The translations under genes were made by a program, and so were the position numbers. Under the pieces are notes generated by a model. It searched no databases. It was not told the DNA's origin and worked only from the letters and a program-made list of their open reading frames with translations. From Rhodovulum sp. MB263 (GTDB taxonomy: Bacteria > Pseudomonadota > Alphaproteobacteria > Rhodobacterales > Rhodobacteraceae), in contig NZ_CP020384.1 of NCBI RefSeq assembly GCF_002073975.1, positions 1,240,001-1,304,000 of the forward strand: a DNA stretch of 64,000 nucleotides, in the 5' to 3' direction. Shown here in pieces: positions 7,363-30,667 of the stretch. Each line of letters begins with the position of its first letter. The stretch's first letter is position 1.

Positions 7363-7407
7363 ATCTGAAGGGGCAGGAAACGGTCCGGGGGGCCATTTCC
7401 CTGACGA
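7363..7407 (+). repeat. Hairpin insertion G in the IS5-family remnant
   Basis: A 45-nt segment between the codons for Ser-Asp of HPEAFSD and the codons for Ala-Ile of the following AAIRTC. The arms CAGGAAACGG (7374-7383) and CCATTTCCCTG (7393-7403) are complementary apart from one bulge and one mismatch. The core GGTCCGGGGGG resembles that of the hairpin at 30643. The upstream part reads in one frame and the downstream part in the next, as expected for a net gain of 43 nt. Confidence 0.5.
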
Positions 7408-7587
7408 CTGCGATCCGGACATGTCTGAGCTTGAGGGGCCTGTTCGGCCCGGTCGCGCGCCTGATCCGGATGACCGGGCTCGACCGGCCAGGTCCTGACT
7501 GTTCGTCGCCGTGCCAACGCCAGGCACTTCTCGCAGTGCAGCCTCCATGCCGCTGCTTCTGTCAACCCTTGAACCTGTTGATCGACA

Positions 7588-7627
7588 ATGAGCTATTGCC
7601 CGCCATTGGTGCGAGGCAATGCCGGAT
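7588..7627 (+). repeat. Hairpin insertion A in the IS5-family remnant
   Basis: Forty bases replace about 5 bases in the Asp-Ser-Thr-Gly block that contains the first catalytic Asp (LLID just upstream, GI.FRSDGDW downstream). It contains the shared core CGCCATTGGTGCGAG (7601-7615), with outer arms GCTATTGCC (7592-7600) and GGCAATGCC (7615-7623) complementary at most positions. The net gain of 35 matches the observed change of frame. Confidence 0.55.
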
Positions 7628-7998
7628 GGCATCCCCTTCCGCAGCGATGGAGACTGGACCGCACGCAAGCACGGCGCGATGCGCCGGCGCGAAGGACGCA
7701 AGCTTCATCTCCAGATGAACACCGCCACCGGCGACATCCGCGCAGCCGAGGTCCCCTCGCGCGGTCAGGACGACAGCCCATTCGCCGGAAAAAGGATCCG
7801 CCGGATCGTCTCCCGATCGTTCTCATTGCGGGGGCGGCTCTCTCAGATCCCGCGCGGAGAGGAAATCGATACCGTCACCGCCGACGGGGGATATGCCGTT
7901 GCCATGCGGCCATCCCCGAGGGTGATGCAGAACCGGCCTGAGCGTTCCTCCGGATCCCGGACCGGGAGTCGAAGTGCTTACAAAGCGAAGGCCTCCTT

Positions 7999-9180
7999 AT
8001 GAGCAGACAGCCTCCGCCGTTTCACCGGCGGGTTCAAGGATCAGGCCGTTTCGCGTCGGTCAGAGCTCGGCGCCGCCCAGACCGGCATCGCGCGCGACCC
8101 CGGGCGTGACGCCGTCGCGGCTGAAAAGCTGGCGGCTTGACTTGAACGCGTGGCCGCTGGTTCGGCCGGGGCAATCCGGCGGCAGCAGGTCGAGACCGCG
8201 GAACTGATCGAGCTGCGCGGCGAGAACCGGCGCCTGAAGGAAGAGGGGGATGCGATGCGGACAGGTGAACAGGCGAGCGGCATGCGTTCGAGTGAGCCTG
8301 TGACCGCTTTTCGCGCCTTGGGCGGCGAAGCCATGAAGGACAAGCTCGCCTTCATCGCGGACCATCTCGGCGAACACGGCGTCGGCCTCATCTGGCAGGT
8401 GCTCTCGGCCAGCACGAGCTGGTTCCCCCCTTGGTGCGCCGCCGCCCCGAAAAGAGCGCTGCGCCATGCCGCGCGGGACAGTCTTCTTCCCGGGATATGT
8501 GCGATCTTCGAGGCGCTCCGCGGGCGCTACAGGGCACCCCGCGGTTGCCTTTGTCCGCCATTGGTCCGAGCGGCAATGGCGAGTGGCATCGGCCAGCAAG
8601 GCGCGGTCGGCCGCGTTCCGCGGACAACCGCCAGCCGGCACAACCTCGGCATCGCGCCGAACTTGCCGAAGCGGAATATCAGGGCTGCGGAGCCGGACAG
8701 GATCTGGCTGGCCGACATCAGCGAGGTGCCGGCTGACGAGGGCTGGCTCTATCTGGTCGGGGTCGAGGACATGGCGGGGATGAAGATCGTAGGGGGGCGA
8801 TGTCAGAGCAGCTGAAAATCAGGCTGGCCCTCGATGCGATGGGCATGGCGCTGCAGAACCGGCGGCCGGTACCGGGGTTGATCTGGCATTCGGATCGCGG
8901 GGTCCAGTGCGCGGCCAGTGACTGCAGGCGGCGTCTGGAGACCCGCAAAGCCGACGCGTCGATGCGCCGGAAAGGCAAGTGGCTGGATAACGCTCCCATG
9001 GAGAGCTTCTGCGCATCGCTCAAGAACGAGCTGGTCGACCGCATCAGGGGCCGGATGCGCCAGGAGACGAAGGCCGCTCTGTCCGAGCAGATTGCCATCC
9101 TCTGCAATCGACACCGTCGTCACCCTAGCACCGGCGACCGGACGCCGGATCAGGCAAGGATCGACACGGGTCCCGTGATG
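7999..9180 (+). pseudogene. IS3-family transposase orfA and orfB, multiply frameshifted (copy 1)
   Basis: OrfA starts at ATG 7999 (MSRQ) and is recognisable out of frame as GVTPSRLKSWRLDL and then AAGSAGAIRRQQVETAELIEL. OrfB begins near 8333 with MKDKLAFIADHLGEHGVGLI and continues through IAPNLPKRNIRAAEPDRIWLADIS. After a frameshift near 8800 come LDAMGMALQNRRPVPGLIWH and HSDRGVQ, WLDNAPMESFCASLKNELVD and the final PDQARID. The catalytic D and E blocks (ADIS, HSDRGVQ, APMESF) are present but in different frames. A hairpin insertion at 8543 is followed by a deletion relative to copy 2. Not functional. Confidence 0.8.
8543..8582 (+). repeat. Hairpin insertion B in IS3-family copy 1
   Basis: A 40-nt segment after the codons for RYRAPR. 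It holds the core CGCCATTGGTCCGAGCGG and the right arm GCAATGGCGA; CGCCATTG and CAATGGCG form an 8-bp perfect stem, and a looser third arm TTGCCTTTG lies to the left. It is at the same position of orfB as the insertion at 30196 in copy 2. Confidence 0.6.
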
Positions 9181-9225
9181 GCCGCAGTGAATATCAGCCC
9201 AGTCCGGGATGAAGGGGCAAGCTCG

Positions 9226-9573
9226 GAGAGTTCATTGCGGCTTAAGCTGCAACCGCCTGAATGTCCGGTGAAACGGGGGCAAGACCAGACATTCATCCCC
9301 TCGACTGATAGCTACACCGAGCTCCAGCGGATTGGTGTCGAAGAGAAGATGGCGGCAGACCCCGGCGGCAAAAGAGAAAATCTTGTCCGTTCATGGTGGT
9401 GAAAGCCATCCCGGATTCAATAGCTTCCCGCATCGACCCTGCGACTGCATAGATGCGGGCATGATCGTGTGAAGTCCTTCACCGGCGACCGCAACCGGCC
9501 ACCAGTGCCCGACAGTATGGAAGGGACGCCCCGGCAGGGCGGCCCTTCGGGTTTGAGGGGTGAGGTGACAGGC
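9226..9573. other. Stretch between IS3 copy 1 and the TRAP operon
   Basis: No supported gene. One open frame continues out of the IS3 orfB remnant to 9402 but has no family resemblance beyond the IS boundary at 9225. The sequence may include eroded mobile DNA. The 3' end of the TRAP transporter transcript probably terminates here, but I see only a weak GC hairpin near 9528-9543. Confidence 0.35.
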
Positions 9574-10641
9574 TCAGCTGCGCCCGGCCAGAAGCGGCAG
9601 GGTCATCGCCCGGGCATAGTCGCGGGCCTCGGCCAGGGCCGGGTCGTAGCTGGCGCGGACCTTGGCCACATCGGCATGCTCGGCGGCCAGCGCATCCTGG
9701 ACCTCGTTCCAGGCATCGCGCTGGGCGGTGATGACTTCCTCGGGGAAGTTGAGGAAGCGCACGCCCTGCGCCTTGAGCTCGGCCAGCGACTTGGCGTTGA
9801 AATGGTCGAACTGGCCCTGCACCTCATAGGCGGCGGCCAGCGCCGCGGCCTCGCAGATCGCCTGCAGATCGGGCGTCAGCTCGTCCCAGGCATCCTGGTT
9901 GAACACGACGGCCAGCCCGGCGCCCGGCTCGGTGAAGGCGGGCAGGTAGCAGATATCGGTGATCTTCTGCAGCCCGAAGGCCTGGTCGAGATGGGGTGAG
10001 ACCCATTCGGCCGCGTCGATGGCGCCCGATTGCAGCGCCTGGAAGATCTCGGCCGGCGGCATCAGCACCGCATTGACGCCGAGCTTGCGGAACACCTCGC
10101 CGCCGAGCCCGGCGATGCGCATGTTCAGGCCCTTGAGATCCTCGACGCTTTCGATCGGCTTCCTGAACCAGCCGGCAGACTGCGTGTTCGAGTTGCCGGA
10201 ATAGAGAGGCTTGAGATTGCGCTGGGCATAGATCTCGTCCCAGACCTCCTGACCGCCGCCCCAGCGCAGCCAGGCCATGTGCTCGGCCGAGGTCATGCCG
10301 AAGGGCACACCGGTGAACCAGTGCAGGGCGGGGTTCTTGCCCGCAGCGTAATAGGTCGGCCCATGCCCGACGGGCGCGTTGCCGGCCTGCACCGCATCCT
10401 CGACGCCGAAGGCCGGCACCAGCTCGCCCGCGCCATAGACGGTGAAGCTCAGCCGGCCATCCGACATCGCGGCCACGCGCGCGGCGAAATTGGTGACATT
10501 GGTGCCCACGGCGGGGGCCATCTTGGGAAAGGCGGTGGGCAGTTTCCAGTGGATCTTGCCCGAGGCGAGTACGGGGCTGGCCAGCGTGCCGGCCGCGGCG
10601 ACGCCGGCGCCCGTTTTCAGGAAGGTTCTGCGGTGCATCAT
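9574..10641 (-). CDS. dctP: TRAP transporter substrate-binding protein (DctP/TakP type)
   Basis: The periplasmic solute receptor of a tripartite ATP-independent transporter. The 355-residue protein starts with a twin-arginine signal (RRTFLKTGAGVAAAGTLASP), common in TakP-like receptors. The mature part contains the DctP signatures KPIESVEDLKGLNMRIAGLG (conserved substrate-binding Arg in MRI) and AEIFQALQSGAIDAAEW. Similarity to the alpha-keto-acid binder TakP of Rhodobacter (YYAAGKNPALHWFTGVPFGM) suggests a 2-oxo acid or similar carboxylate. It is the last gene transcribed in a three-gene minus-strand operon after the Q and M permeases. Confidence 0.93.
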   Translation of the reverse strand: MMHRRTFLKTGAGVAAAGTLASPVLASGKIHWKLPTAFPKMAPAVGTNVTNFAARVAAMSDGRLSFTVYGAGELVPAFGVEDAVQAGNAPVGHGPTYYAAGKNPALHWFTGVPFGMTSAEHMAWLRWGGGQEVWDEIYAQRNLKPLYSGNSNTQSAGWFRKPIESVEDLKGLNMRIAGLGGEVFRKLGVNAVLMPPAEIFQALQSGAIDAAEWVSPHLDQAFGLQKITDICYLPAFTEPGAGLAVVFNQDAWDELTPDLQAICEAAALAAAYEVQGQFDHFNAKSLAELKAQGVRFLNFPEEVITAQRDAWNEVQDALAAEHADVAKVRASYDPALAEARDYARAMTLPLLAGRS

Positions 10642-10658
10642 GTCCTCTTGCGTTGCGC

Positions 10659-12197
10659 CTACCGGAATATCGTCTGCGGCAGCCAGGTCGCAAGCTCGGG
10701 CAGGGCGACCAGGACGCCGAGGGCCACGAGCTGCAATGCCACGAAGGGCAATACGCCGCGATAGGTGTCGAGCGTGGTGATGTCGGGCGGCGCGACCGAG
10801 CGGAAATAGAACAGCGCGAAGCCGAAAGGCGGGGTCAGGAAGGAGGTTTGCAGGTTCATCGCGATCAGGATCGCGAACCAGACCGGCGAGATGTCCGAGC
10901 CAAGGATCGGCGGGCCCAGCAGCGGGACCACGATATAGATGATCTCGACCGCCTCGAGGATGAAGCCCAGGACGAAGATCACCGCCATCACCAGGAAGAT
11001 CGCGGTCATGCCGCCGCCGGGCAGGCCTGCCATGAGCTCCTCGACGAGATGATCGCCGCCGAAGCCGCGGAAGACAAGCGACAGCAGCGAGGCCGCGACC
11101 ACGATGCCGAAGACCATGCCCGAGATCCGGATGGTATCGCTCAGCGCGCCCTGCAAAAGGCCCGCGCGCCAGGTCCGGAGGCCCGCCATCAGCGTGCCCG
11201 TCGCGATCAGGATCGCGGCGCCAAGCGCCAGCAGGCCCGGCAGGGTGCCGAGGGCTGCGCGGCCGAGCCCGGCCATGCCCATCCCGACAAGAAGAAGCGC
11301 CGCAAGCCCCGCAGAGGCGATCAGTCCGCGCCCGAACGCGCTGCCCCCGGCCCGCTGCGCGGCCATCAGCAACGCCCCGACCGCGCCGAGTGCCGCTGCC
11401 TCGGTCGTGGTGGCGACGCCGGCGAGGATCGAGCCCAGCACCGCGAGGATCAGCAGGACCGGCGGCAGGAAGGTGAACAGGATTTCCGAGACGGGCACCG
11501 CTTCGCGGGGCGCGCGCGGCTCGGGCGCGGGGCCGAGCCGCAGCGCGACATAGACGGCATAGATCGCGACCAGCATCAGCCCGGGCAGCAGCGCACCCGC
11601 GAAGAGATCGCCGACCGAGACCGGGTCGGGCGCGAAATTGCCCGCCGCCTGCTGCGCCTCGAGATAGACATTGCCGATCTGGTCGCCCAGCAGCACCAGG
11701 ATGATCGAGGGCGGGATCACCTGACCGAGCGTGCCGGAGGCACAGATCAGCCCCGCCGCCAGCCGCTTGTCGATCCCGGCCGAGCGCATCGCGGGCAGAG
11801 AGATCAGCACCAGCATGACCACCGTCGCCCCGATGATGCCGGTCGAGGCCGCTATCAGCGCCGAGAAGGCCAGCACGCTCAGCCCCATGCCGCGCGGCGA
11901 GCCGCGTGTCAGGCGGCCGAGCACGCCCAGCATGCGCTCGGCAAGCTGCGCGCGTTCGAGCAGCACCCCCATCAGCACGAAGAGCGGCACCGCCATCAGC
12001 AGCCGGTTCGACATCACGCCCCAGACCCGGCCCGGGAAGAAGTTGAGGAAACTCAGGTCGAACAGCCCGAAGGCCGAGGCGATCAGCGCGGTCACGAGCG
12101 GCACGCCCGCGATCGCCAGCATCGCCGGGATGCCGCTGAGAATGCCGCCGAACAGCCCGAGCAGCAGCGCCAGCAGCACGCCTTCCTGCCCCGTCAT
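10659..12197 (-). CDS. dctM: TRAP transporter large permease (DctM)
   Basis: The 12-TM, ion-driven transport subunit. The start at 12197 gives MTGQEGVLLALLLGLFGGILSGIP, typical for DctM; the same frame continues upstream but overlaps the small permease. At 512 residues it is longer than the usual 430 because of an extra hydrophobic segment between about residues 230 and 370, as seen in the larger TakM-like permeases. Signature regions include MAVPLFVLMGVLLER, SGTLGQVIPPSIILVLLGDQ and the C-terminal LTPPFGFALFYFRSVAP. Its start overlaps the small permease stop by 4 bp. Confidence 0.93.
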   Translation of the reverse strand: MTGQEGVLLALLLGLFGGILSGIPAMLAIAGVPLVTALIASAFGLFDLSFLNFFPGRVWGVMSNRLLMAVPLFVLMGVLLERAQLAERMLGVLGRLTRGSPRGMGLSVLAFSALIAASTGIIGATVVMLVLISLPAMRSAGIDKRLAAGLICASGTLGQVIPPSIILVLLGDQIGNVYLEAQQAAGNFAPDPVSVGDLFAGALLPGLMLVAIYAVYVALRLGPAPEPRAPREAVPVSEILFTFLPPVLLILAVLGSILAGVATTTEAAALGAVGALLMAAQRAGGSAFGRGLIASAGLAALLLVGMGMAGLGRAALGTLPGLLALGAAILIATGTLMAGLRTWRAGLLQGALSDTIRISGMVFGIVVAASLLSLVFRGFGGDHLVEELMAGLPGGGMTAIFLVMAVIFVLGFILEAVEIIYIVVPLLGPPILGSDISPVWFAILIAMNLQTSFLTPPFGFALFYFRSVAPPDITTLDTYRGVLPFVALQLVALGVLVALPELATWLPQTIFR

Positions 12198-12721
12198 AGG
12201 GTCTCCTGCATGTCTTTGCCTCGCTCGGCCGGTTTCACGATCATCGCGATCCCCTGCAGGATCATCAGCGTCGAGGCCAGCGGCAGGGTCGATTTGACGA
12301 TGAAGAGCCCGTCCAGACCGCCGGTCTCGATCGCGCCCTCGCGGATCGACCAGGAATAGGAGAGATCGGGCCAGAATGCCCGGATCATCAGCCCGAAAAC
12401 CGGGATCAGGAAGACCAGCACGGCGACGATGTCGGCAATGCGGATATAGCGCGGCGACAGCCGTTCGGAGAAGACCTCGACCCGGACATGGCCGCCGCGC
12501 GCCAGCGTGACCGGAATGCTGAAGACCAGAAGGCTCGCGAAGGCATAATCGGCGGCGTTCTGGAACTGGATCGAGCCGGTGCCGAAGCCGTAGCGCAGGA
12601 TCACGATGGCCAGGGTCGACCCGGTCAGGAACAGGGCCGCCGCCACGCAATAGGCCAGCGTGGCACGGTCGAGCCAGTTGCAGAGCCTGAGATAGGCGGT
12701 GAGGGGCGCGGCGCGTTTCAT
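12194..12721 (-). CDS. dctQ: TRAP transporter small permease (DctQ)
   Basis: The four-TM small membrane subunit that pairs with DctM. The start chosen at 12721 gives MKRAAPLTAYLRLCNWLDRA, with AAGG upstream. A longer in-frame start at 12814 would add 31 residues without family features. The 175-residue protein shows four hydrophobic segments (ATLAYCVAAALFLTGSTLAI, FASLLVFSIPVTLARGGHVRVE, IADIVAVLVFLIPVFGLMI, LPLASTLMILQGIAMI). The GGHVRVEVF motif is the family mark. It is the first gene of the operon, divergent from the NADH dehydrogenase gene; the 221-bp gap should hold both promoters. Confidence 0.9.
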   Translation of the reverse strand: MKRAAPLTAYLRLCNWLDRATLAYCVAAALFLTGSTLAIVILRYGFGTGSIQFQNAADYAFASLLVFSIPVTLARGGHVRVEVFSERLSPRYIRIADIVAVLVFLIPVFGLMIRAFWPDLSYSWSIREGAIETGGLDGLFIVKSTLPLASTLMILQGIAMIVKPAERGKDMQETL

Positions 12722-18139: not shown

Positions 18140-20542
18140 ATGACCGCCCCCGAAGACATTGCCGAGGACCCGGTTGCGGCATTGTTGCAGGCCTACAGCC
18201 CGCCTGCCGGCGTGGCCGATGAGCTCTTGCGACCCGATGGCAGCCTGCGTCCGGTCTGGCGGCCCTTGATCGGGCTTCTGGCGCGGCAGAGCCCCGAACA
18301 GATGGCCGAGCGTTTCGCCCGGGGCGACCAGCATCTGCATGATGCCGGCGTCTATTACCGCCAGCACACCCAGAGCGGCTCGGCTTTGCGCGACTGGCCG
18401 CTGTCGCATGTGCCGGTGGTGATCGACGGGGCCGAATGGCAGGGGCTGGTCGAGGGCATCGTGCAGCGGGCCGACCTGCTGGAAAAGGTGATGGCCGATC
18501 TCTACGGGACGGGCGATCTGGTCGCCAGCGGGCTGTTGCCGGCCGAGCTGATCGCGCGCAATCCCGAATGGCTGCGCCCGGTGGTGGGGATCCGGCCGCG
18601 CTCGGGCCATTTCCTGCATTTCCTGGCCTTCGAGGTCGGGCGTTCGCCGGACGGGTCCTGGCTGGTTCTGGGCGACCGCAGTCAGGCGCCCTCGGGCTCG
18701 GGCTTCGCGCTCGAGAACCGGATGGCGACCTCCCGGGTGTTCCAGGATCTCTTTCCGGGGGCCAATGTCGAACGTCTGGCGGGCTTCTTCCGCGCCCATC
18801 GCAACGCCATGACGGCGCTGAAGGCGGGGAGCGAGGGCAAGGTCGCGATCCTGACGCCCGGGCATCATTCGGACACCTATTTCGAGCATGCCTATATCGC
18901 GCGCTATCTCGGGCTTCTGCTGCTGGAATGCGAGGATCTGAAGCTCGAGCGCGGGCGGCTGATGGTGCGCACCATCCATGGGCCGCAGCCGGTCAGCGTG
19001 CTGTGGCGGCGGCTCGACTCGCGCTTTGCCGACCCGCTGGAACTGGACGAGACTTCGGCGCTCGGCACGCCCGGCATGCTGGCCGCGCTGCGTGCGCAGG
19101 ATGTCACCATGCTGAACTGCCTCGGCTCGGGCGTGCTGGAGGCCCGGGCGATGATGGCCTTCCTGCCGAGGATCTGCGAAAGGCTGATGGGGGCGCCGCT
19201 GAAACTGCCCAACATCGCCACCTGGTGGTGCGGGCAGGACTGGGAGCGCAGCTATGTCTACGAGAACCTGCACCGGATGATGATCGGTCGGGCGCTGTCC
19301 CCGGATCTGCCCTTCGAGGTCGATGCCCTGACCGCGCTGGGCGGCGATTTCCGCGGCACCGCGCGACGCCCGATCGGCGAATGGCTGGAACGCGACGGGC
19401 CCGATCTGGTGGGGCAGGAGGCGGTGACGCTGTCGACCACGCCCGCCATGATCGACGGCCAGCTTCTGCCGCGTCCGGCGCTGATCCGGGTCTTCGCGAC
19501 CCGCACGCCCAAGGGCTGGGTGGTGATGCCCGGGGGCTATGCCCGGATCGGGCGGGCAGGCGATCCGACCGCGCTGGCGATGAAGAATGGCGGCTCGGTC
19601 GCCGATGTCTGGGTCACGAGCGCGCGGCCGGTCGAGCCCGAGACGCTGAGCGGGCCGGGCGAGGGCCCCTTCCTGCGGCGTGCCCCGAGCCTCTTGCCCA
19701 GCCGCGCCGCCGACAACCTGTTCTGGCTCGGCCGCTATATCGAACGCGCCGAGGCGCGGGTGCGGGAGCTGCGCGCCTATCATCTGCGATTGTCGGAAAG
19801 CGGCGATCCGTCCTTGCCGCTGGTGGCGCGGCTCGGCGCCTTCATCGAGGGCTTCGGGGTCGATATCGGCGAGCCGGTCCCGGCCGCGGTGCTGGAGCTT
19901 TTCGAGGCTGCCCAGGGCTGTGCGGGCAAGGTCCGCGACCGGTTCTCGACCGATGGCTGGGACGCGCTGACCGACCTTGCCTTCACCGCGCGGGGCCATT
20001 TCGGCCGTGTGGCGCCGGGCGATCCGGCGGTCCGGGCGATGGGCGAGCTGCTGCGCAGGCTTGCCGGGTTCTCGGGGCTGGTACATGAGAACATGTTCCG
20101 CTCGTCCGGCTGGCGCTTCCTGACGATGGGGCGCGCGCTGGAGCGGGCCGACCAGATGATCTCGCTGCTGGCGGTCTTTGCCGATCCGGCCCAGCCGCCC
20201 GGCGGGTTCGACGTGGCGATCGAGGTGGGCGACAGCGTGATGACCCATCGTCGCCGCTATTCCGTCCATACCGACCGCAACACCGTGATCGATCTTCTGG
20301 GGTTGGATATCGGCAATCCGCGCTCTGTCCTCTTCCAGCTCGATCTTCTGCGCGAGCAGGAGCGGATGCTGAGCCAGAGCGCCCCCGGCGCGCCGATGTC
20401 CGACCTGGCCCGGGCGATCCTGCTGCTGCATACTGAGCTGTCGGCGGCGGTGCCCGAGGATATCGGCCCCGATCGGCTTTTCGGGTTCCAGCAGGACGTC
20501 CGCGACATCTCGACATTGCTGACCCAGCGTTATCTGAGCTAG
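18140..20542 (+). CDS. Circularly permuted ATP-grasp ligase fused to an alpha-E domain
   Basis: An 800-residue protein. The first 480 or so residues are a circularly permuted type 2 ATP-grasp domain: the HVPVVIDGAEWQGLVEGIVQRADLL block, LEKVMADLYG, ALENRMATSRVFQDLF, VAILTPGHHSDTYFEHAYIA, and the metal/ATP region LNCLGSGVLEARAMMAFLP. The last 300 are an all-helical alpha-E domain beginning LLPSRAADNLFWLGRYIERAEA, with ENMFRSSGWRFLTMGRALERA and the terminal helix of the family. The two domains are often neighbouring separate genes; here they are joined. ATP-grasp enzymes ligate a carboxylate to an amine. It is translationally linked to the DUF2126 gene. Confidence 0.88.
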   Translation: MTAPEDIAEDPVAALLQAYSPPAGVADELLRPDGSLRPVWRPLIGLLARQSPEQMAERFARGDQHLHDAGVYYRQHTQSGSALRDWPLSHVPVVIDGAEWQGLVEGIVQRADLLEKVMADLYGTGDLVASGLLPAELIARNPEWLRPVVGIRPRSGHFLHFLAFEVGRSPDGSWLVLGDRSQAPSGSGFALENRMATSRVFQDLFPGANVERLAGFFRAHRNAMTALKAGSEGKVAILTPGHHSDTYFEHAYIARYLGLLLLECEDLKLERGRLMVRTIHGPQPVSVLWRRLDSRFADPLELDETSALGTPGMLAALRAQDVTMLNCLGSGVLEARAMMAFLPRICERLMGAPLKLPNIATWWCGQDWERSYVYENLHRMMIGRALSPDLPFEVDALTALGGDFRGTARRPIGEWLERDGPDLVGQEAVTLSTTPAMIDGQLLPRPALIRVFATRTPKGWVVMPGGYARIGRAGDPTALAMKNGGSVADVWVTSARPVEPETLSGPGEGPFLRRAPSLLPSRAADNLFWLGRYIERAEARVRELRAYHLRLSESGDPSLPLVARLGAFIEGFGVDIGEPVPAAVLELFEAAQGCAGKVRDRFSTDGWDALTDLAFTARGHFGRVAPGDPAVRAMGELLRRLAGFSGLVHENMFRSSGWRFLTMGRALERADQMISLLAVFADPAQPPGGFDVAIEVGDSVMTHRRRYSVHTDRNTVIDLLGLDIGNPRSVLFQLDLLREQERMLSQSAPGAPMSDLARAILLLHTELSAAVPEDIGPDRLFGFQQDVRDISTLLTQRYLS

Positions 20543-22392: not shown

Positions 22393-22395
22393 GCC

Positions 22396-24570
22396 ATGTC
22401 CCGCGACGATCTCAAGGCCACATTCTTCGCCGAGTGCGAAGATCTTCTGGACCAGCTTTCGGAAGGCACCGGCGAGCTGGAGGCCGGAACCGCCTCCGAA
22501 GAGACGGTTCACGCCATCTTCCGGGCGGTCCATTCGATCAAGGGCGCGGCGGGGGCTTTCGCTCTCGACACGCTGGTCAAGTTCGCACACCGCCTCGAAA
22601 CGGTTCTCGACCGCTTGCGCTCCGGGGCGCTGGTCCTCGATCCGGATGCCTTGCAGGTCATCCTGCGCTCGGGCGACATGCTGGCCGAGCTGGTCGAGCT
22701 GGCACAGGCCGAAAGCGACGAGGAACCGCCGCAGATGGCCGAGCTTATCGAAAGCCTTGTGGGGCTTTCGGGGTCGGAGGAAGACGGTTCCTCGGGGCCC
22801 GAACCCGACGAGGCGTTCGAGTTCGCGCCTGTCGCCTTCATGCCGATGTCCTTCGACGGCCCCGAGGAGGAGCCCGAGGACGTCTACAAGATCCGCGTCC
22901 CCGCGATTGCCGAGCTCTTCCGCAATGGCCATGATCCTTTACTTCTCTTCTCCGAACTGGTCGCACTGGGTCAGCTCGAAGTCTCCTGCGATGCCTCGGC
23001 CCTGCCTGACGCCGACGCGTTCGATCCGGATCGCTGCTATCTGTGCTGGGAGCTGACGCTCACCGGAACGATGACCGAGGCCAGCATCCGCGACGCCTTC
23101 GTCTTCCTCGACGATATTTGCGAGATCGAGCAGGTTTCCGGCGGATCGGCCGCTTTGGGGGACGAGCTTCCCGGGGCTCAAGCCGAGGAAAGTCCAATGA
23201 GCGTCGGCGCGCCTGAAAACCCTTCCCTTCCGCAGGTCGCAGCTGAAGAAGCTGCGGCAGAACCGGCCAACGCGGCGTCTGTGACGTCCGAGCCGGCTGC
23301 GGCCGAGAAATCCAAAGCGGCAAAGCCCGCGGCGTCGGTGCCCCAGACGACTCTTCGCGTCGACCCGGAACGGGTCGACCGGCTGATCAACACCGTGGGC
23401 GAGCTCATCATCAACCAGGCCGTGATCACGCAGAAGCTCCTGGCCTCCGGGATGGCGTCCAATTCGGATATCATGAGCGATCTCGACGACTACCAGTATC
23501 TTGCGCGCGAACTTCAGGAAGGGGTGATGGCGATCCGGGCCCAACCGGTGAAGCCCTTGTTCCAGCGGATGCAGCGTATCGTGCGCGAGGCGGCCTATGG
23601 CCTGGGCAAGGACGTCGCGCTGGTCTCCGAAGGCGAGTCGACCGAAGTCGACAAAACCCTGGTCGAACGTCTGGCCGAACCGTTGACGCACATGATCCGC
23701 AACGCGGTGGACCATGGCATCGAGAGCCCCGAGAAACGCATGGCTGCGGGAAAGCCGGCGCAGGGTACGATCAAGCTCTCGGCGGCGCATAGTTCTGGCG
23801 ATGTGCTGATCGAGATCTCCGATGACGGTGCCGGGCTCAATCGCAAGCGCGTCCTCGAAAAGGCGGTCAGTCAGGGCCTGGTTGCGCCAGATGCCAAGAT
23901 GACCGATGCCGAGATCGATAACCTGCTTTTCATGGCCGGGTTTTCGACGGCAGAGAAGGTCACCAACCTGTCGGGGCGCGGTGTCGGAATGGATGTGGTG
24001 AAGACCGCGATCGCCTCGCTTGGCGGTCGCATCTCGATCAGCAGCCGTCCGGGGTTGGGCACGAAATTCTCGATCGCCCTGCCGCTGACCCTCGCTGTGA
24101 TGGACGGAATGGTCATCCATGCGGCCGGTGAAACGTTGGTGGCGCCGCTTTCGAGCGTGGTCGAAACGATCCGTCCCAAGCCCAAGGACATTCTGCCTTT
24201 TGGGCGGGACGGACGACTGCTGTCGATCCGCGGCACTTATGTTCCGATCGTGAACCTGGCCAAACTTCTGGGTTTCCCGACCGATGCTGAGATCACCTCG
24301 GACAATATCCTGATCTTGATCCGCTCCGAGCAATCCGGTTTGGTCGCGCTCGCCGTCGATGACATCTCCGATCAACGTCAGGTCGTGATCAAGAGTCTCG
24401 AAGGCAATTACGGAGCGATCGAAGGAATTTCGGCCGCCACCATTCTGGGCGATGGCCGCATCGCCCTAATCATCGATACTGACGCCATCCTGTCCCTGGC
24501 CGGTCACTTTGGCCGGGACATGGCCTCCAGAGAGGAGATGGACTATGCCCAGACCGCAACAATGGGGTGA
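22396..24570 (+). CDS. cheA: Chemotaxis histidine kinase CheA
   Basis: A 724-residue cytosolic kinase. P1: Hpt domain with phospho-His46 in AVHSIKGAAGAF. A region of about 200 residues follows, containing an ALFRNGHDP-like segment (residues 155-270), probably the response-regulator docking part, then an Ala/Glu-rich linker. P3: dimerisation helices from VDPERVDRLINTVGELIINQ. P4: ATPase with N box HMIRNAVDHGIE, G1 ISDDGAGLN, F box near LLFMAGFSTAEKV and G2 GRGVGMDVV. P5: CheW-like regulatory domain from about residue 570. All catalytic residues are there. It overlaps cheW by 26 bp. Confidence 0.95.
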   Translation: MSRDDLKATFFAECEDLLDQLSEGTGELEAGTASEETVHAIFRAVHSIKGAAGAFALDTLVKFAHRLETVLDRLRSGALVLDPDALQVILRSGDMLAELVELAQAESDEEPPQMAELIESLVGLSGSEEDGSSGPEPDEAFEFAPVAFMPMSFDGPEEEPEDVYKIRVPAIAELFRNGHDPLLLFSELVALGQLEVSCDASALPDADAFDPDRCYLCWELTLTGTMTEASIRDAFVFLDDICEIEQVSGGSAALGDELPGAQAEESPMSVGAPENPSLPQVAAEEAAAEPANAASVTSEPAAAEKSKAAKPAASVPQTTLRVDPERVDRLINTVGELIINQAVITQKLLASGMASNSDIMSDLDDYQYLARELQEGVMAIRAQPVKPLFQRMQRIVREAAYGLGKDVALVSEGESTEVDKTLVERLAEPLTHMIRNAVDHGIESPEKRMAAGKPAQGTIKLSAAHSSGDVLIEISDDGAGLNRKRVLEKAVSQGLVAPDAKMTDAEIDNLLFMAGFSTAEKVTNLSGRGVGMDVVKTAIASLGGRISISSRPGLGTKFSIALPLTLAVMDGMVIHAAGETLVAPLSSVVETIRPKPKDILPFGRDGRLLSIRGTYVPIVNLAKLLGFPTDAEITSDNILILIRSEQSGLVALAVDDISDQRQVVIKSLEGNYGAIEGISAATILGDGRIALIIDTDAILSLAGHFGRDMASREEMDYAQTATMG

Positions 24571-25012: not shown

Positions 25013-25878
25013 ACGCTCCCACGCCTTCAATGACCCCGCGACGAAGCTCCGATATCGTTTTCGAGGAGAGCGACTTTCAGCGTATAGCGGTATTTGCGAA
25101 ATCGGAATATGGTTTGCATCTGGAACCGTCAAAAAAGGCCATGATACATTCCCGTCTTGGGAAGAGGATCGCCTCTCTTAATCTCAAGGGGTTCGCTGAG
25201 TATGATAAGTATCTTAAGGCTAATATCGAAACCGAAAGCGAACACTTCATTTCAGCTCTGACGACGAATGTAACGAATTTCTACCGGGAGAAACATCACT
25301 TCGAGCAGCTGCAGGCCGATGTCTTGCCAAAGCTTGTCGAGCGTGCGCGATCAGGGGGAAGAGTCCGTCTCTGGTCGGCCGGTTGCTCATCCGGTCCGGA
25401 ACCCTATTCCTTGGCCGGAAGCGTTGTTCTCCTGTGTCCTGAGGCGCCAAAGCTGAATATTCGAATCCTTGCGACAGACATCGATCCTTTTGTCCTGCGC
25501 CGAGCCGAGGTCGCGGTTTATAGCGATGAGGAAGCTAAAATCCCCTCAGGTCCCTGGGCTGGTCAGGTGTTCGAGAAAACTGGTGGAAAGAGTCGGGAGT
25601 TTCGAGTGCGCTCGGATGTTCGTTCTCTTGTTTCGTTCAGGAAATTGAACATCAATGGTCCATGGCCGATGTCCGGCCTATTTGATGTGATCATGTGTCG
25701 GAATATGGCGATCTACTTTGACGGTCAAACCCAACAGATTCTTTGGCGCCGTCTCGCAGAGCAACTCGTTCCAGGCGGGATGCTGTTCATCGGTCACTCC
25801 GAGCGCGTATCCGGACCAGCCACCGCGTTGGTCGAGGTCGCCGGTGTGACGGCCTACAGAAAACGTTCCGCTTCGTAA
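25009..25878 (+). CDS. cheR: Chemoreceptor glutamate methyltransferase CheR
   Basis: CheR methylates glutamates of chemoreceptors using S-adenosylmethionine. The 289-residue protein has the N-terminal all-helical substrate domain with TTNVTNFYRE and the methyltransferase domain with RLWSAGCSSGPEPYS (SAM loop), ILATDID, the DVIMCRNMAIYFD block and IGHSE. No TPR or other extension. Third codon positions here are visibly less GC-biased than in flanking housekeeping genes. Together with CheB and CheD it forms a receptor-adaptation set. Confidence 0.95.
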   Translation: MNAPTPSMTPRRSSDIVFEESDFQRIAVFAKSEYGLHLEPSKKAMIHSRLGKRIASLNLKGFAEYDKYLKANIETESEHFISALTTNVTNFYREKHHFEQLQADVLPKLVERARSGGRVRLWSAGCSSGPEPYSLAGSVVLLCPEAPKLNIRILATDIDPFVLRRAEVAVYSDEEAKIPSGPWAGQVFEKTGGKSREFRVRSDVRSLVSFRKLNINGPWPMSGLFDVIMCRNMAIYFDGQTQQILWRRLAEQLVPGGMLFIGHSERVSGPATALVEVAGVTAYRKRSAS

Positions 25879-25910
25879 CTTGAAAGCGGCAAAAGGAAAG
25901 GACACTATCC

Positions 25911-26297
25911 ATGTCTCTCAAGGACAGTCTTAGGATCATGGTCGTCGACGACATGACCGTCAGTCGCGGGCTTGTGACCCAGGCATTGGAGGAGCTTGGC
26001 ATTTTCCACGTGGCTACCGAAGCAAGTGGCCGCGCTGCGTTGTCCAGACTTGCCGCCGATCCAGTTCATCTTGTGCTGGCCGATTACAATATGCCCGGAA
26101 TGGATGGTTTGCAGTTGCTCGAAGGGTTGCGGCGTAATCGTTCCACCCAACGTATCGGATATATTCTTGTTACGGGGACGCCGACACCGGAGCTTATTCA
26201 AAAGGGGCAGCAACTTGGGTTAAATAATATGGTGCGCAAACCTTTCACTACAGCGACTATGAAAAAGGCAATCGAAGCCGTGGTGGGAAGGCTGTGA
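25911..26297 (+). CDS. cheY: Chemotaxis response regulator CheY (second copy)
   Basis: A 128-residue single-domain receiver with Asp13-Asp14, phosphoacceptor Asp58 (VLADYNMPGMDG), Thr in ILVTGTP and Lys in VRKPF. An AAGGAAAGG ribosome-binding site precedes the ATG. It overlaps the following small gene by GTGA. By analogy with Sinorhizobium and Agrobacterium the second CheY is the more likely flagellar-motor effector, but this is inference. No flagellar genes are in the window. Confidence 0.93.
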   Translation: MSLKDSLRIMVVDDMTVSRGLVTQALEELGIFHVATEASGRAALSRLAADPVHLVLADYNMPGMDGLQLLEGLRRNRSTQRIGYILVTGTPTPELIQKGQQLGLNNMVRKPFTTATMKKAIEAVVGRL

Positions 26298-26662
26298 CAC
26301 GTCACGATCTTCAGCTTGTCTCCGAGGGTCCTCGTTTGCCTGAGATTATGGACGTGTTCGGCCATGAACTTCTGCATGCAGCAGAACTTCTGCGACGCTA
26401 TGAGAAGGCAGTCCTGGAACGACAGGTCGCCCAGTCGGTTCGCCAGAGAGGAGCAAGCGAATTGCAACTCGTCGACCTGGTCATTCAGATTTTGGAGGAT
26501 ATGGCGCCCTTTAGCCAGGACCTCGCAAAGCTTATGCCTGAGGAAACGCGTGTTCCGGAAAGTATTATCGACCGGCTGCGTCTTGATCAACTGCGTACGG
26601 TTATGGGGGGTGCGGAAACTCGCGACTCACCTCATTCCGGTGGAGAAATCGACGTCTTCTAG
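26294..26662 (+). CDS. CheT/CheZ-like small chemotaxis protein with a D-x-x-x-Q motif
   Basis: A 122-residue, mostly helical protein starting with GTG at 26294 inside the cheY stop (GTGA), hence coupled to it. It has no strong family I can name. It does contain Asp61-Leu-Val-Ile-Gln65 within SELQLVDLVIQILEDM, the D-x-x-x-Q arrangement used by CheZ and by the CheT protein of Sinorhizobium to attack phospho-CheY. Two long amphipathic helices (residues 16-47 and 52-80) flank it, and an acidic tail ends in GEIDVF, like the CheY-binding tail of CheZ. A CheY phosphatase or CheR/CheY regulator is the best guess. Confidence 0.6.
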   Translation: MTRHDLQLVSEGPRLPEIMDVFGHELLHAAELLRRYEKAVLERQVAQSVRQRGASELQLVDLVIQILEDMAPFSQDLAKLMPEETRVPESIIDRLRLDQLRTVMGGAETRDSPHSGGEIDVF

Positions 26663-27111
26663 CGCTTGTATGTCGTTCGTGTCAAGAAAGGCTGGGCGTG
26701 CAGATTTTAAATCCCATGTCGAGATAATCGAAATTTTTTGCGTTTCTCGGGATTTAATTTTTGTATCTTTTCAAGATAGTCGTGGGGTGGTGGGCTTTAA
26801 TGTCAGCATTACCTATTCGGCGTTCCAGTTGGTTCTCTTCTGTTGTTCAAGTCGAGAGGTGACGAAAAGAGGGCGAAAGGTGGCGGTGATGAGCTTTTAT
26901 CATGTATGAAGAAGATCGTGGTTTTCTTATGCGTATACCAGTGGTCTGCATGCGAGCAAGGAATGCAGCTTTTCCTTTGAGGGGCTTCGGCTTATCGGCG
27001 ATCCCGTAGGGACAATATCGTACGATATTGTCACGGTAAGGCTGAAAGCCAACGTCGGGCCTCAATTTGGTACCGGATCAAACTCTAGGGGAGTGAGGCA
27101 AGGATGGGGCT
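26663..27111. other. 449-bp AT-rich gap inside the che cluster
   Basis: No gene is supported. The sequence is markedly richer in A and T than its surroundings (for example the run around 26740-26775) and breaks what would otherwise be one tightly packed operon. It holds a perfect 22-bp palindrome at 27011 and the ribosome-binding site AAGGATGGGG just before cheB. It probably contains a separate promoter for cheB-cheD; alternatively it is what remains after loss of a gene. Confidence 0.5.
27011..27032. promoter_or_regulatory. Perfect 22-bp palindrome upstream of cheB
   Basis: The half site GACAATATCGT (27011-27021) is followed without spacer by its exact reverse complement ACGATATTGTC (27022-27032). 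It lies 80 bp before the cheB start, in AT-rich DNA, where an operator for a dimeric regulator would be. Which protein would bind is unknown. Confidence 0.5.
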
Positions 27112-28104
27112 ATGCGTGTAATGATCGCAGACGAACGGACAGAGACAAGAGACCGGCTCGCGGCCGCTGTCGAGCAGATGCGGGCAGTTTCGTTGGGTGC
27201 GTGCGTATCAAATCTGAGCGAGACCTATCATGTTGCAGAAAGTCGTCCACCGCAGGCAGTGATTGTTGCAGAAGCGTTAGCGCGGCTTGCAGAGTTCGAG
27301 GTGCTTCTTATGCTGTTTAAGGCGCTTGGAATTCGCTGCGTTATCGTGAGCGAAACGGCGGCTGGCATGGCACGCCTGCCGGCTTCTCTGATCCGCGAGG
27401 GAGTAGCCGTAACGCATAACGGCGCATCTGTGGAAGATTTGCGGCAGTGCTTGCTGCGTGTCCATTTGGGCCGTACTTCGCATGATGCTTCAATACGGTC
27501 GTCCGATGCCGAAATGGCGTTTCAACACGGGCGTCTTATTCTTCTGGGCGCGTCGACTGGCGGAGTTGATGCATTGGTCAAGGTTCTTGAGAATTTTCCT
27601 TCGAATTGCCCGCCGACATTGATTGTTCAGCATACGAGCGAGTCCTTCAGTGCAGGTCTTGCGCGCCTTCTTGACCGCAACACCGCCGCGACTGTCGAGG
27701 AGGCTCAGGACCAGGAGCCGTTAGTCCCGGGGCGCGTTCTGCTTGCTCCGGGAAAGGCGCATCATCTCGAAGTCGGGGCGTCAGGTGCTCTTCGTTGCCG
27801 CCTCAGGGAAGGGCCGCTTCAATCCGGTCACCGTCCGTCGGTCGACGCTCTGTTTATGTCGGCGGTTCCGGTTGCGTCGAGGGTTTGCGCGGCCATTCTT
27901 ACGGGAATGGGGCGTGATGGGGCAGAAGGCATGCTGGCGCTCCACCGCGCAGGTGCGCATACGATCGGACAGGACGAAAAGACATCGCTGGTCTACGGAA
28001 TGCCTCGGGCGGCTTATGAGCTCGGTGGCGTTCGAAACAGGCTGCCGCTGGATTCCATCGGTCGGGCGGTTCTTGAAAACTGTAGCCGAAGGAGCGCTGC
28101 ATGA
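27112..28104 (+). CDS. cheB: Receptor methylesterase CheB with a degenerate receiver domain
   Basis: A 330-residue protein. The C-terminal methylesterase domain is intact: Ser148 in LLGASTGGV, His174 in IVQHTSESF and Asp269 in LTGMGRDGAEG. The N-terminal 120 residues have the receiver fold but lack its chemistry: the acidic pair is Asp7-Glu8, the place of the phosphoacceptor Asp is Ala53 (AVIVAEALARL), and the switch Lys region reads VTHNGAS with no Lys-Pro. It therefore cannot be activated by CheA in the usual way. The gene is preceded by an AT-rich gap with a palindrome and overlaps cheD by 4 bp. Confidence 0.92.
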   Translation: MRVMIADERTETRDRLAAAVEQMRAVSLGACVSNLSETYHVAESRPPQAVIVAEALARLAEFEVLLMLFKALGIRCVIVSETAAGMARLPASLIREGVAVTHNGASVEDLRQCLLRVHLGRTSHDASIRSSDAEMAFQHGRLILLGASTGGVDALVKVLENFPSNCPPTLIVQHTSESFSAGLARLLDRNTAATVEEAQDQEPLVPGRVLLAPGKAHHLEVGASGALRCRLREGPLQSGHRPSVDALFMSAVPVASRVCAAILTGMGRDGAEGMLALHRAGAHTIGQDEKTSLVYGMPRAAYELGGVRNRLPLDSIGRAVLENCSRRSAA

Positions 28105-28664
28105 CACCGCAACCGCCAAATCGGACAGCCGACAAAGACACCTGGCCATCGCGTGTACATTCAGTGGTGCAGGGTGAATATCATGTTTCACGAGATCCTG
28201 ATATCGTGCTCTCTACCGTTCTTGGGTCCTGTGTCGCAGCGTGCATTTTTGATTCGCGTGTCGGACTAGGAGGAATGAATCACTTTCTTCTTCCCGGCGA
28301 TGCAGAAACAGGTTCGACTGAACTAAAATACGGTGCTATGGCCATGGAGCTTCTTATCAATGAGTTGCTCAAAGCTGGTGCACGGCGATCCGATATGAAG
28401 GTGAAGCTCTTCGGCGGAGCGCGTGTCAGTTCTGCTTTCAGGGATATCGGCGCCAGAAATGTCGATTTCGCTCGCTCTTACATTAGACGTGAGGGATTCG
28501 AAGTCTTGTCTGAGAGTCTAGGTGGCATGCAGGCCCGGCGCCTTCATTTCAGGCCGGTGACCGGAGCTGCCCGATTGGTACTCCTCCCCCCCACGGAAGC
28601 ACCTACCGAGAAACGAATTACGGTGCCAAAAGTAAAGACCGCTACTGACATTACTCTGTTCTAG
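28101..28664 (+). CDS. cheD: Chemoreceptor glutamine deamidase CheD
   Basis: CheD deamidates receptor glutamines and in some bacteria helps CheC or controls CheA through the receptors. The 187-residue protein has the catalytic Cys44 in TVLGSCVAACIFD and His61 in GGMNHFLLP, followed by Y-G-A-M-A-M-E-L-L-I and KLFGGARV. It ends the che cluster; the inverted repeat of an IS3-family element begins only 14 bp past the stop codon. Confidence 0.93.
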   Translation: MTPQPPNRTADKDTWPSRVHSVVQGEYHVSRDPDIVLSTVLGSCVAACIFDSRVGLGGMNHFLLPGDAETGSTELKYGAMAMELLINELLKAGARRSDMKVKLFGGARVSSAFRDIGARNVDFARSYIRREGFEVLSESLGGMQARRLHFRPVTGAARLVLLPPTEAPTEKRITVPKVKTATDITLF

Positions 28665-28738
28665 AAGCCTAGGTGTTCTGAGCTTGCCCGCGGATCCCGG
28701 ACCGGGAGTTCTCGTACTCGCAGAGAAAGGGATCCCAC

Positions 28739-28781
28739 ATGAGCAGACACCCCCGCCGTCACCTCACCGCCGGGTTCAAAG
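28739..28781 (+). pseudogene. IS3-family orfA, 5' fragment (copy 2)
   Basis: Fourteen codons from ATG 28739 (MSRHPRRHLTAGFK) match the start of IS3-family orfA. The frame is cut at 28782 by the IS481-like element, and the rest of orfA is missing. Confidence 0.7.
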
Positions 28782-29002
28782 TGTCCACTTAACCTTCTTT
28801 CCATGCTATTTTGGGAAAGGAGGAGCCCGCCATGGATGGAACACCGAAAGCGACGAAACCCAAGGCTCGTGACGCGAAGACCAAGATCGCGCAAACCCGC
28901 ATGAGCGTTCTGGAACTGGCGAAAGAACTCGGCAACGTGGCCGAGGCCTGTCGCCAGCGCGGCATGGACCGCACCAGCTTCTATGAGTGGAAACGCCGGT
29001 TT

Positions 29003-29051
29003 TGGGTTTGAGGGACCGTGGCGCCGGTGGCGCCGCGTAAGCCCGAGAACG
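29003..29051 (+). repeat. Hairpin insertion F in the IS481-like transposase
   Basis: Forty-nine bases between the codons for KRRF and GFEGLKD, where the family normally has about three codons. The outer arms GGGTTTG and TAAGCCC pair if G-T wobbles are allowed. The centre is GGCGCCGGTGGCGCC, which on the opposite strand shares GGCGCCACCGG with insertion E. The net gain (about 40) fits the frame change from 2 to 0. Confidence 0.45.
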
Positions 29052-29240
29052 GGCTTCGAGGGGCTGAAGGACCTGCCGCCGATCCACAAGACCCACCCGC
29101 AAACGACCCCGCCGGAGACGGTCGAGCGGATCAAGGCGCTGGCGCTCGAACATCCGGCCTAGGGCTGCAACCGCTTCGAGGCGATGCTGGCGCTCGAGGG
29201 CGTGCGGGTCTCCTCGATCACCATCCAGAAGATCCTGAAC

Positions 29241-29280
29241 GGTCGCCAGCGTGGCGCCACCGGTTCGAGCCCGCTGGCGA
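29241..29280 (+). repeat. Hairpin insertion E in the IS481-like transposase
   Basis: Forty bases replace the Asp-Asn of the expected ILNDNGLGTR block. Outer arms TCGCCAGCG (29243-29251) and CGCTGGCGA (29272-29280) are perfect 9-bp complements. The core between them is GGCGCCACCGGTTCGAGC. The net gain of 35 matches the observed return from frame 0 to frame 2. Confidence 0.65.
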
Positions 29281-29637
29281 CGGCCTGGGCACGCGCTGCG
29301 ACCGCTGGCTGGCGCTCGAGGACGCCCATGCGGGCCAGACCATCGAGATCACTGCCGAACAGGCCGCCTTCCTCGAGAAGCAGAACCCGTGCTTCCGGGA
29401 ACGACACGTGGGATCAGGCACTCCCGGCGAGCTGCTCTCGGCCGACACGTTCTTCGTCGGCACGCTGAAGGGGATCGGCAAGGTCTATCTGCACGCGGTC
29501 GTCGATACCTTCGGCAGCTACGCCTTCGGCTTCCTGCACGTTTCCAAGCAGCCCGAGGCGGCGGTCGCAGTCCTGCACAACGACGTGCTGCCCTTCTACC
29601 GCGCCCTGGACCTGCCGGTGAAAGCGGTGCTGACCGA

Positions 29638-29679
29638 GCGAGCCATTGAAGGCGCCATTGGTTCGAGCCCAATGGCGAG
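29638..29679 (+). repeat. Hairpin insertion D at the catalytic Asp codon of the IS481-like transposase
   Basis: Forty-two bases replace about 3 bases between LPVKAVLT and GREFCGTE, destroying the T-D-N-G motif. The inner arms CGCCATTGG and CCAATGGCG are perfect complements around the 7-base loop TTCGAGC, and a third copy of the arm, GCCATTG, lies upstream at 29642-29648. The net gain is a multiple of three, and the frame stays open across it. Confidence 0.65.
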
Positions 29680-30195
29680 CGGCCGCGAATTCTGCGGCAC
29701 CGAGCGTCACCCCTACGAGCTCTATCTCGACCTCAACGCAATCGAGCATCGCCGCACCAAGGTCCGCACGCCGAAGACCAACGGCTTCGTCGAGCGGTTC
29801 AACGGCACGGTGCTGGAGGAGTTCTTCCGCGTGAAGATGCGCAAGACCTTCTACGAGACTGTCGAGGCCCTCCAGGCAGATCTCAACGCCTGGCTCGTCC
29901 ACTACAACACCGAGCGCCCGCATCTGGGTTACCGAAACATGGGGCGACGTCCCATCGAAACCGTAATGTCATTCGTTAGCCAAGAAGGTTAAGTGTACAA
30001 ACGCTTGTTTCGCCCACGCTGCCGAGCACGCCGTGATCCTCATGTGCCGGGTGCTCTCGGTCAGCACGAGTTGGTTCCACGCCTGGCGCGCCGCTGCCCC
30101 CGAACGGGCGGCGCGCCAGACACGGCGGGACGCTCTGGCACCACGGATCCGGGAAATCTCCGATGCGAGTCACCAGCGATACGGCGCGCCACGCA

Positions 30196-30236
30196 GTTGC
30201 CATTGACGTGCCACTGGTCCGAGCGGCAATGGCGAC
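30196..30236 (+). repeat. Hairpin insertion C in IS3-family copy 2
   Basis: Forty-one bases after the codons for YGAPR, replacing about 5 bases before AELRDQG. The core is GCCACTGGTCCGAGCGG, with outer arms TTGCCATTG (30197-30205) and CAATGGCGA (30227-30235) complementary at 8 of 9 positions. The insertion keeps the frame but brings in a TGA. The same orfB site is occupied in copy 1 (8543-8582). Confidence 0.65.
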
Positions 30237-30642
30237 GCCGAACTTCGCGATCAAGGCATCCGGGTGGCCAGGAAGACGGTGGCCAGGCTCATGAAAGATC
30301 ACGATATCCCTCCGCCGGGCCGCGCCGGGGCCGCCGCGTTCCGCGGACGACCGACGGCCGGCACAATCTCGGCATTGCGCCAAACCTGCTGCGGCGGAAT
30401 TTCCGCGCCGCGGAGCCGGACAGCATCTAGCTGGCCGGCATCAGCTACGTGCCCACTGACGAGGGCTGGCTTTACCTTGCGGCGGTGAGAGACATGGCGA
30501 CCATGGAGATCGTGGGGTGGTCGATGTCGGACCGCCTGAAAAGCAGCCTCGCGGTCGACACGATGCGCATGGCGCTACAGAACCGGCGGCCGGTCCGGGA
30601 CTGGTTTGTCACTCCGATCGTGGAGTTCAATACGCCAGCGGA

Positions 30643-30667
30643 TCGAACGGTCCGGGGGACCGTTCGA
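30643..30667 (+). repeat. Perfect 11-bp hairpin H in IS3-family copy 2
   Basis: TCGAACGGTCC (30643-30653) and GGACCGTTCGA (30657-30667) are exact complements around GGG. It sits where orfB should encode the stretch after the HSDRGVQYASG block, and is followed by a deletion up to NAPMES. The centre CGGTCCGGGGG is shared with insertion G at 7363. Confidence 0.6.

Follow-up and report, generated by a model that had tools for sequence, protein, structure and literature searches.

Short palindromic insertions in transposase, phage and gene transfer agent genes of Rhodobacterales: a probable family of mobile elements

Palindromic elements that look mobile and lie inside open reading frames without breaking the frame are described, in the accessible parts of the reports, for Rickettsia and Wolbachia (PMC3767692, PMC10969869). 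The Rickettsia palindromic elements (RPE) are given there as 100-150 bp sequences of Rickettsia (and Wolbachia) that reside in metabolic genes (PMC10969869, PMC3767692), and the accessible part of an account of the repetitive extragenic palindromic (REP) sequences and REPINs gives a palindrome of 20-40 bp (PMC3733652). Here we report on a family of hairpins met in a 64,000-nucleotide stretch of the Rhodovulum sp. MB263 genome (contig NZ_CP020384.1, positions 1,240,001 to 1,304,000; the window), where they interrupt the remnants of transposase genes. The element has a length of ~41 nt and is composed of two outer base pairs, a foot, a variable stem of 7-9 bp and the conserved loop CGCCAYYGGTYCGAG. 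The foot is a tandem G.A/A.G, and a second subclass has a fully paired (Watson-Crick) foot. We consider it probable that these hairpins are a non-autonomous mobile palindromic element of Rhodobacterales that moves by the mechanism proposed below.

Judged from the accessible parts of the RPE reports, RPE are the nearest known system. Like RPE, the hairpins also sit in frame in open reading frames, namely those of phages and gene transfer agents (GTA), where all 18 pairs of filled and empty copies differ by a net 36 nt. This likeness is limited in that the 44 distinct GA-foot sites in insertion sequences (IS) show no in-frame bias, the net length change modulo three being 0 in 12, 1 in 10 and 2 in 22. 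The hairpins differ from RPE in size (~41 nt, not 100-150 bp), in carriers (Rhodobacterales, no search aimed at Rickettsia having been made) and in their conserved loop, covarying arms, replacement of 4-5 target bases and IS, phage and GTA hosts. With the REP/REPIN-RAYT systems, as far as the accessible account goes, they share the short palindrome and conserved foot bases, and the paired-foot subclass is likewise intergenic; however, a GTAG foot (5' foot dinucleotide TA) is present in at most 1 of 244 hairpin contexts, the MB263 genome lacks a Y1_Tnp gene, and the GA-foot class is intragenic with variable arms and a conserved loop. Miniature inverted-repeat transposable elements (MITEs) are also short, non-autonomous and dispersed, but the hairpins, at ~41 nt, cost the target bases rather than duplicating the target site, and no parent transposon was found, Y1_Tnp and RVT_1 being the only enzymes searched. 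Short hairpin insertions in coding sequence are also known from the mitochondrial byp elements and the bypass of T4 gene 60. In contrast to these, translation can pass in-frame copies of the hairpin without meeting a stop, and the target loses bases (hairpin G of Table 1 removes the TAAC of a TDNG motif). Because those bases are lost and would not be restored, translational bypass would not restore the protein, and we rejected it. No description of the family was met in the literature searched, most subscription papers and preprints lying outside that search, and as far as that literature shows we judge it to be an undescribed variant of mobile palindromic element.

The original prediction held that the pairing of the arms is kept while their sequence changes, and two alignments agree with this. 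The R1 set (15 elements, arms N-padded by hand) had 87.6% of its cells paired and 17 two-sided cells, versus 27-49% pairing in slid controls. The R2 set (39 equal-length elements, unpadded) had 89.5% of cells paired, and its 140 two-sided cells were spread over 10 of 11 pairs, slid registers giving 30-41%; cells paired, two-sided cells and covariation score were each reached by 0 of 500 shuffles. The two remaining measures, pairs with two-sided change and pair types, were reached by 8 and 24 of 500 shuffles for R1 and by 91 and 39 for R2. The 39 elements were what was left of 58 distinct 41-mers upon removal of near-duplicates, some with a broken pair, which was harmless because all 58 average ~89% paired over 11 pairs. 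A competing fold, the inner helix of the core with the 3' arm, showed no covariation and was rejected. Many arms hold a second tandem G.A (columns 11-12 with 30-31). Of five examples folded as RNA, four formed the outer stem (z -1.4 to -3.5) and one did no better than shuffles (z -0.5); the sequences cannot separate RNA from single-stranded DNA as the strand that would fold. Length was nearly constant: 71 of 73 viral contexts measured 41 nt, although the pattern allowed 5-9 and 3-9 arm bases, and the 44 IS sites measured 40-44 nt. Among 268 contexts the foot was GA/GA in 113, TC/GA (fully paired) in 81 and TT/GA in 18; subtraction of 24 (15 without the CGA foot and 9 with a weak stem) gave the 244 contexts counted here.

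Empty copies of the IS hosts exist, as expected if the segments are not native coding sequence. With the hairpin left out and its flanks searched against all collected loci, an empty partner was found for 100 hairpins, with 61 distinct sites among those listed. At all 61, and in each of the 18 pairs of the GTA/phage regions, the empty copy shows that bases were lost, which confirms the claim that each insertion replaces a few target bases and leaves no duplication. At the 44 GA-foot IS sites four bases were replaced in 24, five in 19 and three in 1; a purine preceded the replaced bases in 43 and a G followed them in 34. The hairpins read sense at 26 of these sites and antisense at 18; orientation is thus mixed and the coding strand does not dictate insertion, nor were multiples of three favored. 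One IS5 position, S1 (ATGG[CGCT]CCGG), was filled in the MB263 genome and, at 67-75% identity, in L112, L141, L142, L211 and L245, and closer copies (87% and 85%) were empty. The S1 tree of 22 rows (5 filled, 4 of them from MB263, and 17 empty; four of the five filled copies from elsewhere were left out) required two changes, forced by the starred branches, which would most simply be two gains. In L215 near 7457 (- strand) one hairpin is nested inside another of opposite orientation.

The 16-base core, allowing one mismatch, occurred at 28 places in the MB263 genome (4.16 Mb, 3 contigs) versus 1 for the reversed pattern; with the covarying arms and the absence of duplication this upholds the proposal of a real family of miniature insertions. 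Covariance model R1 gave 40 matches there at E<=1, of which 32 adjoin segments matching labelled transposase pieces. Another seven were put in IS by inspection (six in the IS481-like gene, where Pfam scans of two pieces gave nothing, and one in an IS256 gene, where Pfam named Transposase_mut beside the hairpin, L027), and one (E=0.5) was without IS evidence. Among the families represented at the 44 distinct sites are rve, rve_3, DDE_Tnp_1, DDE_Tnp_1_2, DDE_Tnp_1_5, HTH_Tnp_1, HTH_21, IstB and IS66; Y2_Tnp, TniB and Transposase_mut were seen in further contexts. Confinement to transposase genes, as first proposed, thus holds for nearly all copies of the MB263 genome and fails elsewhere, where phage terminase, portal and head genes, GTA genes and intergenic DNA are occupied. 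Likewise, model matches agree that none lies in the ordinary genes of the window, and phage/GTA genes and intergenic DNA are occupied elsewhere. In the MB263 genome four IS5 copies carry a 36-nt in-frame insert, and in two of them a 325-residue frame is open across it; an IS3 OrfB of G028 is similarly open for 320 residues and matches rve, rve_3 and HTH_21. From their intact frames these are possible candidates for living transposases.

The two foot classes occupy different niches, an IS label being given to 90 of 113 GA-foot contexts, 24 of 99 paired-foot contexts and 12 of 32 others. The label denotes a BLAST match to 37 segments, a few of which were labelled by HTH only or below cut-off; Pfam scanning of 49 segments matched 38 and gave nothing for 11, and a scan of 10 additional contexts gave no match for 4 and a tRNA synthetase for 1. 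The paired-foot subclass is found in intergenic terminator-like DNA of other genera. In genome G033 none of 14 contexts had an IS label, and nearly all lay between CCGGGG and GGGC(A/T)G..CCCC terminator-like flanks; such flanks were present in 57 of 100 contexts in clusters of three or fewer. Across Rhodobacterales, in L289-L305 (G033) and many of the L109-L188 loci, terminator-like arms (CCGGGGG and GGGCAGAGCCCCC) enclose hairpins with the paired foot.

At E<=1e-4 R1 had matches in 44 of 100 genera of the family Rhodobacteraceae. We also applied the GA-foot pattern to 295 genomes, one per genus, that had not been picked for being viral; 24 of them held 34 matches in total, and the reversed control gave 0 in every genome. 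Thirty of the 34 were read: 24 lie in IS (19 by BLAST, 2 by Pfam/NCBIfam (L645, L653) and 3 by inspection (L639, L646, L640), frames submitted from these last three giving nothing in Pfam), 5 in GTA/phage genes (L662 and L665 named by Pfam/NCBIfam; L656, L659 and L666 by likeness to viral copies) and 1 is without assignment (L657). None of the 30 was shown to lie inside an ordinary cellular gene. Named records with matches were nearly all from Rhodobacterales, plus two Acetobacteraceae metagenome-assembled genome (MAG) contigs, one Thiohalocapsa MAG and one record titled Enemella. R2 was also run on 14 genomes from the class but outside the family, giving 0 matches in 13 and 2 in G045. A G045 match of 40.5 bits (L016/L620), outside the family, stands beside a class I tRNA synthetase frame (PF00749). 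Matches in other families of the class (L009-L015) and in L018 had no convincing outer arms and were set aside as chance coding matches.

Scans of viral contigs with three patterns gave 17, 17 and 84 stretches. In-frame elements in genes named by PHROG/Pfam were found in GTA gp15 (megatron, phrog_4271, PF13547; three inserts in L345), the terminase large subunit (L346, L350 and L357, and the L352 frame too), portal (L352) and major head (L343). The 80 gp15 loci held 13 credible inserts in 10 loci, each exactly +36 nt and with 60-79 empty loci per site. The terminase set held five more of +36 nt each, with 8-68 empty loci, four of them on neighboring genes or strands. Matches without an empty partner and with 2-3 mismatches were left out as spurious (2 of 15 for gp15, L393 and L413, and 7 of 12 for terminase). 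In fifteen of the 18 pairs 41 bases stand for 5, in two, which are paired-foot copies, 43 for 7, and in one, given a wider frame, 46 for 10; the gp15 and terminase frames are open across the insert. On its length the +36 nt is a net 12-codon insert, readable as an extra stretch of 12 amino acids. The RcGTA structure 6tba has no insert at the ITDG site, and an AlphaFold model of an insert-bearing terminase had a mean pLDDT of 38.9 and was not interpreted.

The frame with GAG as a codon was stop-free within the element in 72 of the 73 viral contexts. The longest frame was sense phase 1 in 33, an antisense frame in 39 and sense phase 0 in 1, a test that alone leaves the coding strand undecided; hence, we relied on the PHROG/Pfam names. 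These gave 13 sense in-frame sites. Nine fall within the stretch that matched (five in gp15, two in terminase and one each in head and portal), and the other four, a second portal site and one site each in phrog_14596, a helicase and phrog_16731, lie on its edge or outside it. The single antisense site is in-frame in a GTA megatron N-terminus (L665 1500-1541; the gene is partial, with an NCBIfam score of 764 versus a cut-off of 800), and owing to it the statement that all phage/GTA copies are sense was dropped. L561, L568 and L569 share this antisense context, the gene being named in L665 only. The excess of sense copies in phage/GTA genes hints at a bias but does not prove one. Given the lack of a multiple-of-three bias and the mixed strands at IS sites, insertion seems blind to frame and strand, with selection sorting the survivors in needed genes. 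In phrog_14596, a small GTA-associated gene (L357 3322-3690, L361 and several of L536-L603), the insert stands at what looks like one site. Several compensating arm pairs differ between these contigs, the arms CCCGGTTC, ACCGGTTC, ACCGCTCC and ACCGATCC each having a matching 3' arm.

A RAYT was looked for as the mobilising gene, as originally suggested, and the suggestion failed: Y1_Tnp genes numbered 0 in the MB263 genome, the control giving a signal in 5 of 14, and were present in 2 of 15 hairpin-bearing genomes versus 2 of 7 genomes without R1 matches. Given its absence from the MB263 genome and the lack of association with carriers, Y1_Tnp was rejected as mobiliser. Reverse transcriptase (RVT_1) was present in 8 of 15 hairpin-bearing genomes (one of the eight, G033, below the family cut-off) versus 1 of 7 others. 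It is not required, since it is absent from G093, which has 16 R1 matches and neither enzyme. The MB263 genome has two genes with a reverse-transcriptase domain (G000:C1:863422 and 3150746).

In the mechanism that we propose, an enzyme acting in trans would recognize a single strand (single-stranded DNA, or RNA copied at the target) by the loop and foot of its fold, and the folded strand would be exchanged for a short target gap. Recognition of loop and foot would select for a covarying stem. Copies in cellular genes would mostly be lost, those in dispensable IS would persist and spread with the IS, and those in needed phage/GTA genes would persist only when read through in frame. We infer the single-strand step from covariation, the foot motif and target-base loss. 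Several points weigh against a mobile element of this kind. No transposition was observed, the comparisons being of presence and absence, and the mobilising gene was not found in enzyme searches that covered Y1_Tnp and RVT_1 only. To our knowledge an exact exchange of 4-5 bases matches no known transposase signature. Replacement was less regular at the 17 non-GA sites (4-12 bases), where the frame used was too wide for the paired-foot class. The invariance of core and foot is partly built in, because the pattern that selected the covariance sets fixes the core and the GAG..CGA foot. Moreover, the arms are not target-derived, which leaves their matching variation unexplained unless the elements diversify by compensatory change.

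An ordinary REP/MITE-like repeat without preference, its bias to IS, phage and GTA genes reflecting survivorship and the horizontal spread of carriers, is a serious possibility to which we give somewhat less than an even chance. Such a repeat would fit the intergenic paired-foot copies, the 23 of 113 GA-foot contexts that have no IS label, of which not all were named, and the inheritance of IS copies with their IS (the MB263 copies of the IS481-like element share hairpins E and G). It fits less well with GA-foot copies standing at 44 separate sites across many IS families rather than at a few amplified ones, with the want of an ordinary cellular gene among the 30 contexts read although GTA/phage genes tolerate in-frame copies, or with the near absence of a GTAG foot, the missing RAYT and the lack of target duplication. 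We think it distinctly unlikely that the hairpins are selected RNA structures that act in transposase, phage or GTA mRNA (cleavage, translation control or termination) and are kept by host or element, mobility being secondary. Covariation even at apparently one site of one GTA-associated gene, the paired-foot class in terminator-like DNA and the 13 sense versus 1 antisense phage/GTA sites speak for such a role, whereas at 18 of 44 IS sites the mRNA would carry the complement and, among 80 loci, 60-79 lack the insert at the same gp15 sites. That the hairpins arose by chance in IS remnants rich in G+C might be argued from the segments at 7363 and 30643 and from F, which lack the core, yet F is nevertheless an insertion. 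Pattern controls of 1 and 0, the 0 of 500 shuffles on three measures and the existence of empty copies leave chance virtually no credibility, and for the core family it is already refuted.

A stronger form of the mobile-element proposal, in which an undescribed class of element moves as a folded 41-nt strand, takes the place of five target bases and is guided to the genes of transposases, phages and GTA rather than merely tolerated there, is rather doubtful. Were it true, the family would act as a hyperparasite, or be run by the host to mark mobile-element genes, which would gain a stretch of 12 residues or be broken. Mobile palindromes within reading frames are known from Rickettsiales (RPE and the Wolbachia palindromic elements, WPE), whose obligate intracellular life makes a mechanism difficult to study. 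In Rhodobacterales, which can be cultured, the shorter family covaries strongly, replaces target bases by a nearly exact rule, favors IS, phage and GTA genes and comes with many pairs of empty and filled sites. Laboratory strains could therefore be used to test which enzyme mobilises it, how targets are chosen and what the 12-residue insert does.

Within the window eight segments had been assigned to the family. Hairpins A, C, D, E and G share CGCCAYTGGTYCGAG, or a variant of 1-2 bases, and a complementary outer stem, whereas F and the segments at 7363 and 30643 lack the core; the latter two had neither a core match nor an empty homologue among the loci searched. The reading frames predicted to follow from the insertions were rechecked for F, G and the IS5 copies only. 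Segment F is perhaps another kind of hairpin or a degenerate one, and because it is an insertion without the core, a second hairpin family (F, 30643 and 7363) may share these IS. A suspected likeness of the core to a tRNA T-arm (TTCGAGC) did not hold in general, 10 of the 15 exact core matches in the MB263 genome reading TCCGAGC, and a tRNA origin was rejected since ARAGORN found zero tRNA in the window. An Rfam scan of 6800-31200 at E<=1 gave two weak matches (19146-19215 and 22492-22519), neither on the segments. No empty homologue of C or D was present among the loci searched.

Table 1 Hairpin segments and the IS481-like element, in window positions
Feature	Position	Strand	Description
Segment at 7363	7363..7405 (end approximate)	+	no family core; putative insertion, no empty homologue among the loci searched
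Hairpin A	7588..7627	+	GA-type foot ATGAG..CGGAT; inside IS5-family transposase remnant; R1 match G000:C1:1247590, E=0.004
Hairpin C	8545..8584	+	IS3-family remnant; R1 match, E=2.7e-7
IS481-like element	28781..29999	+	terminal repeats
Segment F	29003..29051	+	49 nt replacing ~9 nt, net +40; hairpin without family core; basis, empty copy L034
Hairpin E	29241..29282	+	fully paired foot GTCG..CGAC; R1 match; kept in L034
Hairpin G	29638..29680	+	43 nt replacing TAAC in TDNG stretch, net +39; R1 match, E=2.0e-9; R2 match
Hairpin D	30197..30237	+	IS3-family remnant; R1 match; also present in L031, L032
Segment at 30643	30643..30667	+	perfect hairpin without family core; putative insertion, no empty homologue among the loci searched

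The IS481-like element has four other matches in the MB263 genome at 97-99% (three nearly full length, one partial). Its relative L034, 88% identical and from another species of the same genus, lacks F and G and has E. The target of hairpin G reads ACCGA[TAAC]GGCC in the empty copy, where it encodes the DN of the TDNG motif, which we take to have a catalytic role in the transposase. The site of hairpin A is common to L006/L101, L238 and L213, and empty relatives read GACA[GCAC(C)]GGC.

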